The notes below the pieces were generated by a model. The model saw only the letters and a program-made list of their open reading frames with translations, was not told the origin of the DNA and searched no databases. A DNA stretch of 64,000 bases from Alphaproteobacteria bacterium (GTDB lineage Bacteria > Pseudomonadota > Alphaproteobacteria > Ferrovibrionales > Ferrovibrionaceae): assembly GCA_017307375.1 (NCBI GenBank), contig JAFKFH010000008.1, forward strand, positions 186,001-250,000. Direction: 5' to 3'. The position numbers were made by a program, and so were the translations under genes. Positions 30,060 through 54,600 of this stretch are shown here, in pieces (the stretch's first letter is position 1; every line of letters starts with the position of its first letter).

Positions 30060-30533
30060 TCAGGCGACGACCGCCGCCACCACGGCCTGCAGCACCGCCG
30101 CCGCATCCTGCGGCTTCAGCCGCACCTGCAGGCCGCGCTGACCGCCGTTGATGTAGACGAGGTCATGGGCCAGCGCCTGCGCCTCGATCGCGGTGGGCAG
30201 GCGCTTCATCTGGCCGAACGGGCTGATGCCGCCGATCTTGTAGCCCGACAGGCGCTCGGCATCGGCAGGCTTCATCATCTGCGCCGCCTTGGCGCCGAAG
30301 GCCGCGGCCAGCTTCTTCATCGAGACTTCGTGGTCGGACGGCACGATGACGACGACGGGCCGGCCATCGGCCAACGCCATCAGGGTCTTCAGGACGCGGG
30401 CCGGCGCCTCGCCCAGCGCCTCGGCCGCCTGCATGCCGATCTGCTCGGCATCGGGGTCGTAGTCATAGCCGTGCACGGTGAAGGCGACCCCCGCCTGCTG
30501 CAGCATCTTCGTCGCGCGCGTGACCTTGGACAT
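30060..30533 (-). CDS. ybaK: Cys-tRNA(Pro) deacylase, YbaK/EbsC family
   Basis: A 157-residue YbaK-type editing protein: KMLQQAGVAFTVHGYDYDPD at the N-terminus, VLKTLMALADGRPVVVIVPS (functional Lys), and GYKIGGISPFGQMKRLPTAI, the hallmark GG.SPFG loop. It hydrolyses Cys mischarged on tRNA-Pro. Normal length. It lies downstream of asd behind a strong terminator, so it likely has its own promoter in 30534-30577 or relies on read-through. Confidence 0.9.
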   Translation of the reverse strand: MSKVTRATKMLQQAGVAFTVHGYDYDPDAEQIGMQAAEALGEAPARVLKTLMALADGRPVVVIVPSDHEVSMKKLAAAFGAKAAQMMKPADAERLSGYKIGGISPFGQMKRLPTAIEAQALAHDLVYINGGQRGLQVRLKPQDAAAVLQAVVAAVVA

Positions 30534-30613: not shown

Positions 30614-31639
30614 TCAGCGCGGAAACAGCTGCTCGGCGATCTGCACGGCGTTGAGCGCCGCGCCCTTGAGCAACTGGTCGCCGGACACGAACAGCGCGAT
30701 CGAGCGGCCGGAAGGGTCGCCGATATCCCGGCGGATTCGCCCGACCAGCACGTCGTCGCGCCCCGACGCCTCGGAAGGCATCGGGAAGTGATTGGCCGAC
30801 CGGTCGTCGACCAGGGCGACGCCCGGAGCCTTGGCGAGCAGGGCGCGCGCCTCTTCCGGGGCGAGGGGCTGGTCGAACTCGATGGTCAGCGCGATCGAAT
30901 GGGCACGCAGCACCGGCACCCGGATGCAGGTGATGCTGATCGGCAGGTCAGGGGTGCCGAGGATGCGCCGGGTTTCGGCCATCGCCTTCAGTTCCTCGCC
31001 GTTATAGCCGGTCTCCTCGTCGATCGCGGCATTGTGGCTGAACAGGTTGAAGGCGTAGGGATGCGGCAGGACCTTGTGTTCGAACGGCCGGTCCGCGAGG
31101 TAGGCTGCAGTGGCCTGGCGCAGTTCCTCCATCGCCGCGGCGCCGGCGCCGGACGCCGACTGGTAGGTGGCGGCATGGACGCGGCGAATCGGGCGGGCGC
31201 GATGCAGCGGCGCCAGCGCCATCACCATGATCGCGGCGACGCAGTTCGGATTGGCGATGATGCCGGCATGCTTGCCGGTGGTCTCGCCGTTGACCTCGGG
31301 CACCACCAGCGGCACCTGCGGCTCCATCCGGAAGGCGGAAGAATTGTCGACGACCACCGCGCCCGCCTCGACCGCGATCGGCGCGTAGCGGCGCGAGATC
31401 GAGGCGCCGGCGGAAAACAGCGCGACGTCGATGCCCTTGAAGCTGTCTTCGGTCAGCGTCTCGATCGCGACCTCGCGACCGGCGAACGGCAGGGTGCGCC
31501 CGGCCGATCGGGCCGAGGCGAGCAGGCGGATGTCGCCGACGGGAAAATTGCGCTGCTCGAGGCATCGCAGGATCTCGATGCCGACGGCACCGGTGGCACC
31601 GACCACGGCAACCGCGGGATTACGGGGTGAGATGGACAT
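30614..31639 (-). CDS. asd: Aspartate-semialdehyde dehydrogenase
   Basis: A 341-residue Asd: NADP-binding VAVVGATGAVGIEILRCL, catalytic Cys133 in IIANPNCVAAIMV, and the active-site HAATYQSASGAGAAAMEEL. It reduces aspartyl phosphate to aspartate semialdehyde, the branch point to threonine, methionine, isoleucine, lysine and diaminopimelate. The Shine-Dalgarno GGAAGGAAG is located five bases before ATG 31639. Upstream lies a threonine-rich leader peptide and hairpins (31647-31812), so expression is probably attenuated by threonyl-tRNA supply. It is monocistronic, with a strong terminator. Confidence 0.95.
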   Translation of the reverse strand: MSISPRNPAVAVVGATGAVGIEILRCLEQRNFPVGDIRLLASARSAGRTLPFAGREVAIETLTEDSFKGIDVALFSAGASISRRYAPIAVEAGAVVVDNSSAFRMEPQVPLVVPEVNGETTGKHAGIIANPNCVAAIMVMALAPLHRARPIRRVHAATYQSASGAGAAAMEELRQATAAYLADRPFEHKVLPHPYAFNLFSHNAAIDEETGYNGEELKAMAETRRILGTPDLPISITCIRVPVLRAHSIALTIEFDQPLAPEEARALLAKAPGVALVDDRSANHFPMPSEASGRDDVLVGRIRRDIGDPSGRSIALFVSGDQLLKGAALNAVQIAEQLFPR

Positions 31640-31646
31640 CTGGACT

Positions 31647-31719
31647 TCCTTCCATGTGGACCGGGAAGGACGGTTGGCGGTGCTTTGGCCCGCTGGCCCC
31701 GTCCGTTTCCGGCGGGGCC
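31647..31719 (-). promoter_or_regulatory. Candidate attenuator between Thr leader peptide and asd
   Basis: Two hairpins can form in the leader mRNA. The first (31719-31695) has a 7-bp GC stem GGCCCCG/CGGGGCC, a bulged A, three more pairs and a GAAA tetraloop. The second (31670-31647) pairs TCCTTCC with GGAAGGA, which is the asd ribosome-binding site itself. A ribosome stalled at Thr codons upstream could change which structures form. There is no T-run after the first hairpin, so control of translation initiation or Rho access is more likely than classical termination. Confidence 0.55.
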
Positions 31720-31737
31720 TCTGCGCTTATGTCGTGA

Positions 31738-31812
31738 TCAACCGACGCCGCACAGATCGCCCGCCGGAGCGGTCGTCTTGGTAGTGCGGGTGGTTTTGGT
31801 CATGGTCGACAT
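31738..31812 (-). CDS. Threonine-rich leader peptide upstream of asd
   Basis: A 24-codon open frame from ATG 31812 to TGA 31738, ending 98 bases before asd on the same strand. Eight of codons 3-14 are Thr (core MTKTTRTTKTT), written with ACC, ACT and ACG. This is the composition of thr-operon attenuator peptides such as ThrL. An internal ATG at 31803 is an alternative start, and an in-frame ATG at 31830 could also be used. Upstream, TTGCAT and TGCTAG elements between 31825 and 31850 may form the promoter. Too short for usual gene finders; assigned from composition and position. Confidence 0.7.
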   Translation of the reverse strand: MSTMTKTTRTTKTTAPAGDLCGVG

Positions 31813-31858
31813 GGGCGCGGAAGCTAGCATCGCGACCGGGCGGAATGCAATGGCCTTG

Positions 31859-45014: not shown

Positions 45015-45110
45015 TGGCGGAAGAGAGTAGGAGTCGAACCTACCCGGAGCCGTCTGACGACCCCAACCGGGTTTGAAGCCCGGCCGCCCCACCGGAGGCG
45101 ATTCCCTTCC
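45015..45110 (-). tRNA. selC: tRNA-Sec (anticodon TCA)
   Basis: A 96-base tRNA on the minus strand: 8-bp acceptor stem GGAAGGGA/TCTCTTCC, anticodon loop CTTCAAA giving TCA, a long variable arm, T-loop GGTTCGACTCC and encoded CCA. The eight-base acceptor and long extra arm distinguish selenocysteine tRNA from serine tRNAs. It lies 21 bases after selB and is probably cotranscribed with it. Confidence 0.95.
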
Positions 45111-51637: not shown

Positions 51638-54600
51638 TCAGACCGACGGCGCCGACAGGCGTTCGACATTGACCAGGAACGCCTTGAATTCCGGCGTCTC
51701 GATATTGGCATCGCCGACGAACGGGGTCAGGGTGTTGGTGGCATACCCCTTCCGCGTCTGGCCGACGAAACCCCAGTGGATCGGCAGGCCGACCGTATGC
51801 ACGGTGCGGCCGTCGACCTGCAGGGCCTTGATGCGCTTGGTCACCACCGCGACCGCCTCGATGTCGCCGCGCTTCGACCGCACCCGGACCCAGTCGCCCG
51901 CCTTGATCCCCTTCTCGCGCGCCAGCGCCTCGCCGATCTCGACGAACTGCTGCGGCTGCAGGATCGCGTTGATCTTGGTGTGCTTCGACCAGTAGTGGAA
52001 ATGCTCGGTCAGGCGGTAGGTCGTCGCCACATAGGGGAAGTCGGCCGCCGTGCCGAAGGTCGCCCGGTCGCCGGGAAAGACCCGGGCGACCGGATTGGCC
52101 GACACCTTCGGGTGCAGCGGGTTGGCGATCGGCGCCTCCATCGCCTCGTAATGCTCGGGGAACGGTCCCTCGCGCAACATGCCGCGGGTGAACAGCCGCG
52201 CGGTACCCTCGGCATTCATGATGAACGGCCCCATGCCGTCGGACGGCTTGGAGGTGACGACGAAGTCCGGCACGTCCGGGCCGGTCCAGCGACTGCCGTT
52301 CCACCAGACCAGGCGATGCTTCGGGTTGAACGGCTGGCCCTGCGCGTCGCAGGAGGCGCGGTTGTAGAGGACGCGGCGGTTGGCCGGCCAGCACCAGGCC
52401 CAGTTCGGGGCCAGCCCGGTGTCATAGGGATCGGCGGTGTCGCGCCGGGCCATCATGTTGCCGCGCTCGGTGAAGCTGCCGGAATAGATCCAGCAGCCGC
52501 AGGCGGTGCTGCCGTCGTCGCGCAGCTGGGCGAAGCCGTCGAGCTGCAGGCCCGCGGTCAGCAGCATCTTCGACGGATCGTTCGGGTCCGGCACGCTTTC
52601 GACGACATAGCCGTTGGTCTCGCGGGCGATCTCCTCGGCCGTCGGCTCGTCGGGCAGGCGGTAGGGCCAGTGCAGGTTCAGCACCGGATCGGCGAACGTC
52701 CCGCCCTCCTTGGCGTAGAGGCCGCGGATCCGGCGGTAGATGTCCGCCATGATGCGGATATCCTCGCGCGCCTCGCCCGGGGCATCGGCCCCCTTCCAGT
52801 GCCACTGCAGCCAGCGGCCGGAATTGGTCAGCGAGCCTTCCTCCTCGGCAAAGCAGGTCGAGGGCAGGCGGAACACCTCGGTCTGGATATCCTCGGGCTT
52901 GACGTCGTTGTAGCGGCCGTGGTTCTGCCAGAATTCCGACGTCTCGGTCGACAGCGGGTCGATCGTGACCAGGAACTTCAGCTTGGACAGCGCGGCGGTC
53001 AGCTTGGCCTTGTTGGGGAACGACATCAGGGGGTTGAAGCCCTGGCAGATATAGCCGTTCAGCTTGCCCTGGTGCATCAGCTCGAACGCGCGCAGCACGT
53101 CGTAGACGACGTCGAGCTTGGGCAGCCACTGATAGGCGAACTCGTTGTCCTTCGTCGCCGCCTTGCCGTACATGGCTTTCTGGAAGGAGACGAAGAACTT
53201 CGAATAGTTCTGCCAGTAGCTCAGCTGGCCGGGACGCATCGGCTTGAAGTTGCGCCGGCCGATATAGGTGGCGTAGTCGACTTCGGCGTCGACCGGCAGG
53301 TTGAGATAGCCGGGCAGCAGGTTCGACATCAGGCCGAGATCGGTCAGGCCCTGGATGTTCGAATGGCCGCGCAGCGCGTTCATGCCGCCGCCGGCGACGC
53401 CGATATTGCCCAGCAGCAGCTGGACCATCGCCATCGCGCGGATGTTCTGCGACCCCTTCGAATGCTGGGTCCAGCCCAGCGCGTACATCGAGGTCATCGC
53501 CTTGTCGGGGGCCGAGGTCTCGGCCATCCACTGCGCCGCCATCAGGAACTTGTCCTTGGGCGTGCCGCAGATGCGCTCGACCATCTCGGGCGTGTAGCGG
53601 CTGTAATGCTGCTTCATCAGCTGGTAGACGCAGCGCGGGTCGGTCAGGGTGTTGTCGATCTTGACGTAGCCCTGCTCGTCCAGCTCGTAATCCCAGCTCG
53701 ACCTGTCGTAGTCCTTGCGCTCCTCGTTCCAGCCGGAGAACAGCCCTTCCTGGAAGCCGTAGCCCTGCTTAACGATATAGGCGGCGTTGGTATAGTTGAG
53801 GACGTATTCCTTCTGGATCTTGTCGTTGTCCAGCAGGTACTTGATGACGCCGCCCAGGAAGGCGATGTCGGTGCCCGGCCGGATCGGCATGTAGAGGTCG
53901 GCGACGGCGGCCGAGCGGGTGAAGCGCGGATCGATGACCAGCAGCTTGGCGGCGTTATGCGCCTTGGCCTCGGTCACCCATTTGAAGCCGCACGGATGCG
54001 CCTCGGCGGCATTGCCGCCCATGATCACCACCAGGTTGGTATTCTTGATGTCCCCCCAGGTGTTGGTCATCGCGCCGCGGCCGAAAGTTGGGGCCAGACT
54101 GGCCACCGTCGGTCCGTGTCATACTCGGGCTTGGTTATCGAAGACGATCATCCCCATCGAGCGCACGACCTTGTAGGTCAGGAAGGCCGTTTCGTTCGAG
54201 GAGGCCGAGGCCGCCAGCATGCCGGTCGAGGTCCAGCGGTTCACCGTCTGGCCGGCCTGGTTCTTGGCGATGAAGTTCTTGTCGCGATCGTCCTTCATCA
54301 GCCGGGCGATGCGGTCCAGCGCGAAGTCCCACGACACCCGCTTCCACTCCTTGGCGCCGGGCGCGCGGTATTCCGGATAGGTCAGCCGCGTCGGGGCATG
54401 GACGAAGTCGAGCAGTGCCGCACCCTTCGGGCACAGCGTGCCGCGATTGACCGGGTGGTCCGGGTCGCCCTCGATATGGATGATCGACGACCGCGAGTTC
54501 TTGGCCCGGTCACCGGTCGAATACATCAGCACGCCGCAGGACACCGAGCAGTAGGGGCAGGTGTTCCGGGTCTCGGTGGTGCGGGCCAGCTTGAACGGCC

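Follow-up and report, generated by a model that had tools for sequence, protein, structure and literature searches.

The asd gene in a 64,000-nucleotide stretch of alphaproteobacterial DNA (the window) is likely controlled by a ribosome-mediated attenuator: a Thr-rich upstream open reading frame (uORF) would sense threonyl-tRNA and, through a relay of RNA helices, act mainly on the initiation of asd translation. If this is true, alphaproteobacteria sense threonine at the point where the syntheses of lysine, methionine, threonine and isoleucine diverge, and a single leader-peptide design has had its output moved between transcription and translation. The leader would also offer a compact, testable case in which one helix after another carries a ribosomal stall to a ribosome site some way off.

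A threonine-rich frame upstream of asd

The regulated gene and the elements at the 5′ end of its leader are as follows.

30614..31639, minus strand: asd, aspartate-semialdehyde dehydrogenase, 341 aa (NCBIfam TIGR01296 and NF011456, both above cut-off)
31771..31806, minus strand: Thr codon cluster, codons 3–14, the proposed stall region, overlapping arm 1 of the 1:2 helix
31812 (ATG) to 31738 (TGA), minus strand: Thr-rich leader peptide uORF, 24 codons, MSTMTKTTRTTKTTAPAGDLCGVG (read from the sequence; homologous frames in relatives)
31822..31827, minus strand: -10-like CTAGCT, 9 nt 5′ of the leader ATG, a spacing that would imply a leaderless or nearly leaderless uORF (read from the sequence)
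31845..31850, minus strand: -35-like TTGCAT, 17 nt from the -10-like element (read from the sequence)

A sequence-only reading of this DNA had described a 24-codon frame with eight Thr codons among codons 3–14, ending 98 bases before asd. The minus-strand sequence bears this out: Thr occupies uORF codons 3, 5, 7, 8, 10, 11, 13 and 14, and exactly 98 nt separate the stop codon from the asd ATG (31639). Of the 24 codons in the uORF, 8 specify Thr, an end product of the pathway that asd serves, as is expected of a leader-peptide attenuator. Such a composition is exceptional in its surroundings. When ATG frames of at least 12 codons were scanned on both strands of the window, the asd leader frame (with three nested ATGs) stood alone among 1471 in having at least eight Thr in 12 codons, and five mononucleotide shuffles of the window yielded zero frames of this kind. 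At an assumed Thr frequency of 5.3%, the binomial probability that any one set of 12 codons includes at least eight Thr is about 2.5e-8.

The uORF is probably leaderless or nearly so, because the leaders share promoter-like positions: a T-rich -35 position is common to 45 non-redundant leaders, and an A/T-rich -10 position lies about 9–13 nt 5′ of the leader ATG. A strict sigma-70 scan did not pick up the -35-like element of the asd leader. On the other side of the gene, 80 nt 3′ of asd, lies a frame (30060–30533, minus strand) that is possibly co-transcribed with it; we take its product to resemble a YbaK-type deacylase.

Pairing arms between the leader frame and asd

The sequence-only reading had also placed two structures between the uORF and asd: a GC stem with a GAAA loop, and a second hairpin having the asd Shine–Dalgarno sequence (SD) as its 3′ arm. 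Both are present, at 31719–31695 and at 31670–31664 paired with 31653–31647. Beyond that reading, we find alternative helices, 2:3 and 4:5, that connect the two hairpins. The arms are listed below in 5′ to 3′ order, with the analyses that bear on each.

31750..31764, minus strand: arm 2, GGCGGG..UCUGUGC, within leader codons 17–21 (swap tests of 2:3 and of its variable half, 2b:3a)
31711..31726, minus strand: arm 3, GCGCAGA plus (GGC)CCCGCC, whose partner is either arm 2 (antiterminator-like) or arm 4 (swap tests)
31695..31719, minus strand: 3:4 hairpin, terminator-like, with a GAAA loop and no U-tract, GGCCCCGCCG-GAAA-CGGaCGGGGCC (covariation)
31699..31710, minus strand: arm 4, the loop and 3′ arm of 3:4, GGAA(ac)GGACGG, SD-like and able to pair with arm 5 (covariation, swap test)
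31664..31673, minus strand: arm 5 (anti-SD), CCGUCCUUCC, whose partner would be arm 4 (ON) or the SD (OFF) (swap test, accessibility, covariation)
31645..31653, minus strand: arm 6, the asd SD, GGAAGGAAG, 5 nt before the ATG (5:6 swap test, SD accessibility)

In the SD hairpin, UCCUUCC (31670–31664) pairs with GGAAGGA (31653–31647); this 5:6 helix hides the asd SD, an arrangement that defines SD-sequestering translational attenuators. The leader as a whole folds with a z-score of -3.28, and 0 of 200 shuffles were equally stable. The mark of an intrinsic-terminator attenuator, a U-tract following 3:4, is missing from the window, where the 12 nt that follow the stem contain 0 U, and is found in some relatives and in thrS leaders; a terminator scan of the asd leader in the window was likewise negative. 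An Rfam search of the asd leader gave no match to RF00506, either at the gathering threshold or at E values up to 5, and since it matched no described Rfam family, explanations by such a family or by a riboswitch or T-box of a known class were rejected.

Conservation and covariation of the leader

Related asd loci were collected from named genomes with 350 nt upstream of each, and a Thr cluster was defined as at least three Thr in 12 codons. A homologous short Thr-rich frame, typically ..TKTTA.AG.., precedes about 67 of the 79 loci; one locus (L015), in which the match overlaps asd on a cut contig, was left out of this count. Many of these frames also hold Ile, Met and Lys codons, i.e. codons for other aspartate-family residues. 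With KTT as the anchor, the third position is the only one to vary in the Lys and first Thr codons, the anchor itself fixing positions 1 and 2; at the unselected codon -2 (Thr in 24 of 31), variation is again found mostly at position 3 (0.06, 0.33 and 0.63 for the three positions). It is mainly the Thr/Lys-rich stretch and the pairing arms that are conserved, while the peptide ends differ in length and sequence.

Pairing was assessed with a swap test, in which the duplex energies of native partners were compared with those of partners exchanged among 43 non-redundant leaders (<75% identity). All four helices of the proposed relay favored native partners in this set, whose shared phylogeny is not fully corrected for: -31.6 vs. 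-26.8 for 2:3, -19.4 vs. -17.2 for 3:4, -21.6 vs. -18.7 for 4:5 and -13.9 vs. -11.6 for 5:6, each with 0 of 20000 permutations. The 1:2 helix also passes (0/20000). For the control pairs 2:5, 3:6, 2:6 and 3:5 in the same leaders, native partners were not better (p = 0.39, 1.0, 0.055 and 0.24, respectively).

The GGCGGGG/CCCCGCC core of 2:3 is conserved and displays no covariation. When it is left out, the variable half (2b:3a) still distinguishes native from swapped partners (-11.0 vs. -7.3 kcal/mol; 0/50000); examples of this pairing are UCUGUGC:GCGCAGA in the window and UUUUUGAGG:CCUCAAAAA in the relative L077. Five of the 10 pairs in 3:4 are changed on both sides, as are five of the eight core pairs in 4:5, where the covariation score was reached in 0 of 500 shuffles. 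Helix 5:6 was judged by the swap test; a pair count on alignment A2 was dropped, as the rows of that alignment do not keep the SD in register. Mutual information calculated by column across the full gapped alignment was noisy and was set aside as evidence. The swap tests, along with the covariation of 3:4, support mutually exclusive 2:3 and 3:4 helices that overlap the end of the uORF, the 2:3 core contributing no covariation.

At the level of sequence, the uORF is conserved, and its arms are mutually exclusive and covary across species. The sequence-only reading had named a lack of conservation in relatives as the finding that would count against it; instead, both the Thr frame and the hairpins are widely kept. 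Because the design recurs in many alphaproteobacteria, the asd leader is probably a real, little-described threonine sensor.

A proposed helix relay to the asd ribosome site

From the sequence we infer that the uORF is translated without a leader, that ribosomes stall on it, that threonine is what is sensed, and which way asd responds. With charged tRNA-Thr in short supply, a ribosome would stall on the Thr codons and leave arm 2 unpaired. Free arm 2 would then form 2:3, so that arm 4, itself unpaired, could capture arm 5; with arm 5 so held, the SD (arm 6) would be exposed and asd would be ON. When threonine is ample, the ribosome would reach the uORF stop codon and cover arm 2, whereupon 3:4 would form, arm 5 would pair with the SD and asd would be OFF. 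The OFF state may be strengthened by Rho acting on the untranslated message.

Folding predictions are consistent with this relay. Across the 43 leaders, mean predicted SD accessibility was 0.50 when 2:3 was assumed to be in place, leaving arm 4 free, vs. 0.28 with arm 3 free, rising in 31 leaders and falling in three (p = 7e-9); for the window leader the predicted values are 0.61 (ON) and 0.15 (OFF). In these predictions, the SD is more exposed with the native arm 4 than with a swapped (p = 8e-5) or shuffled (p = 3e-7) one. Little or no predicted gain is seen in some relatives, among them L027, L059, L061, L064, L078 and L082. When folding from arm 2 onward is treated at equilibrium, the SD difference is modest (0.38 vs. 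0.29). The window leader, so treated, still folds 3:4 and switches incompletely; the ON state would therefore need 2:3 to form co-transcriptionally.

The principal competing explanation is classical transcription attenuation, in which 3:4 terminates without a U-tract or with the help of Rho and the SD pairing is secondary. Several leaders do look the part: U-tracts follow 3:4 in the asd relatives L039, L065, L072, L075 and L080 and in thrS leaders, including one in the window's own genome. However, the 12 nt after the window's 3:4 hold no U and most relatives have few, the terminator scan was negative, and 4:5 and 5:6 covary. Moreover, the relay's predicted gain in SD accessibility is smaller in leaders with a U-tract (p about 0.01) and larger in those without. 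We regard this explanation as unlikely. Since its 3:4 hairpin lacks a U-tract, asd control in this genome is probably translational; the suggestion in the sequence-only reading that the leader acts on translation rather than termination gains support here from the SD relay and the lack of a U-tract. Termination is the probable output of the thrS leaders and of those relatives that have U-tracts.

Two other explanations carry far less weight. The uORF could encode a small protein, or the leader could yield a trans-acting sRNA, in either case doing more than controlling asd in cis; peTrpL and rnTrpL of Sinorhizobium meliloti are precedents (PMC10117765, PMC7298713), but the peptide ends vary and conservation sits in the Thr/Lys stretch and the pairing arms, which makes such a role quite improbable. 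Least credible of all is a chance origin. Folding comes easily to GC-rich sequence, yet the frame is unique in the window, is absent from shuffles and is kept, with covarying arms, in many alphaproteobacteria.

Relation to known attenuators

The gammaproteobacterial thrL leader (RF00506) encodes a peptide rich in Thr (and Ile) codons and pits 2:3 against 3:4 helices to control aspartate-family genes. The asd leader has in common with it the Thr codon-rich peptide, the alternative 2:3 and 3:4 helices and an aspartate-family target. It differs in its lack of an Rfam match, its stand-alone asd, its leaderless-type uORF, the missing U-tract in the window and the additional 4:5 and 5:6 helices that extend to the asd SD. 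In the translational attenuators of erm and cat genes, ribosome stalling in a uORF frees a sequestered SD, with an antibiotic as the signal; there the stall frees the SD directly, whereas for asd we propose an additional relay through 2:3 and then 4:5.

Within the alphaproteobacteria, the closest description concerns SEP5 of S. meliloti, a small ORF with a cluster of codons, six for Thr and three for Lys, that lies in the 5′-UTR of a gene named aspartate dehydrogenase in the paper (PMC10117765). Its translation was detected by Ribo-seq and Western blot, and one passage of that 2023 paper suggests a leader peptide; SEP5 is described there as conserved only in Sinorhizobium, and the paper offers no RNA mechanism for it (PMC10117765). 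SEP5 is possibly related to the asd leader: as described, it shares the Thr/Lys codon cluster in a 5′-UTR and the suggested leader-peptide role. The trpL uORF of S. meliloti is a leaderless leader-peptide uORF in an alphaproteobacterium (PMC10117765); unlike the asd leader, it senses tryptophan in a transcription attenuator whose released sRNA and peptide act in trans. Mycobacterial polycysteine uORFs, to the extent that they are described in a citing paper (Canestrari 2020, as cited in PMC9094748), are likewise leaderless short ORFs in which a codon run serves as an amino-acid-responsive attenuator, the differences being the amino acid, cysteine, and the host, actinobacteria. Our search, which covered a collection of open-access papers, found no other account of a Thr attenuator for asd or thrS in alphaproteobacteria; an earlier prediction may exist elsewhere. 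The sequence-only reading had considered a Thr attenuator for a stand-alone asd in an alphaproteobacterium to be new. Little described it is, but the claim of novelty is tempered by the S. meliloti Thr/Lys ORF suggested in 2023 (PMC10117765) and by the U-tract relatives, which look like ordinary terminators.

Further copies of the leader design

The peptide end and hairpin were made into a covariance model (R1) that took no account of gene context; it matched in 38 of 385 genomes of the class. Of its 45 matches, 33 lie upstream of asd (22) or of a short thrS (11), which encodes threonyl-tRNA synthetase. In a phylum-wide sample, R1 matched five genomes outside the class. Four of these matches were inspected: two (L139 and L146) precede thrS, and the other two (L143 and L145, in two genomes) are Thr-run leaders before a gene that we take to be isochorismatase-like.

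In the window's own genome, the second-best R1 match (E = 4e-5) lies before a 398-aa thrS, whose leader has the Thr frame MAHPVSMTLTTTTTAVRRSRWARASI and a U-tract terminator. This short thrS (L132/L148, G000:C16:253302-254350) matches TIGR00418 only from profile position 171; similar leaders also precede short thrS genes in other genomes. We looked for a leader before the genome's second asd copy and for a Thr-rich frame upstream of its full-length thrS, and saw neither. Because those copies have no Thr leader, the comparison of upstream sequences suggests that the extra copies (the window's asd and the short thrS) are the threonine-responsive ones.

The same genome holds a dapA-like gene (L149/L153, G000:C37:106125-107172; NCBIfam dapA TIGR00674, 204.2 bits, just below the cut-off of 206.15) preceded by a leader of the same chassis, its frame containing KAKK (MFGHSAHAKAKKGPFTGTGDRRAR) and its hairpin bearing a U-tract. 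A homologue occurs in 13 of 240 genomes, several having one to three Lys codons at that place; these are too few to claim a Lys attenuator. It is about an even call whether these leaders represent one modular alphaproteobacterial chassis, a leaderless uORF and a conserved GC hairpin, carrying Thr codons before asd and short thrS and possibly Lys codons before the dapA-like gene, and whether its output has shifted, over evolutionary time, between intrinsic termination and a helix relay that exposes the SD.

The R1 matches L112, L121 and L124, whose leaders are not Thr-rich, precede small proteins that presumably resemble DUF1127. Elsewhere in the window, Rfam places a tRNA-Sec at 45019–45110 and a SECIS_3 element at 54066–54124, both on the minus strand.
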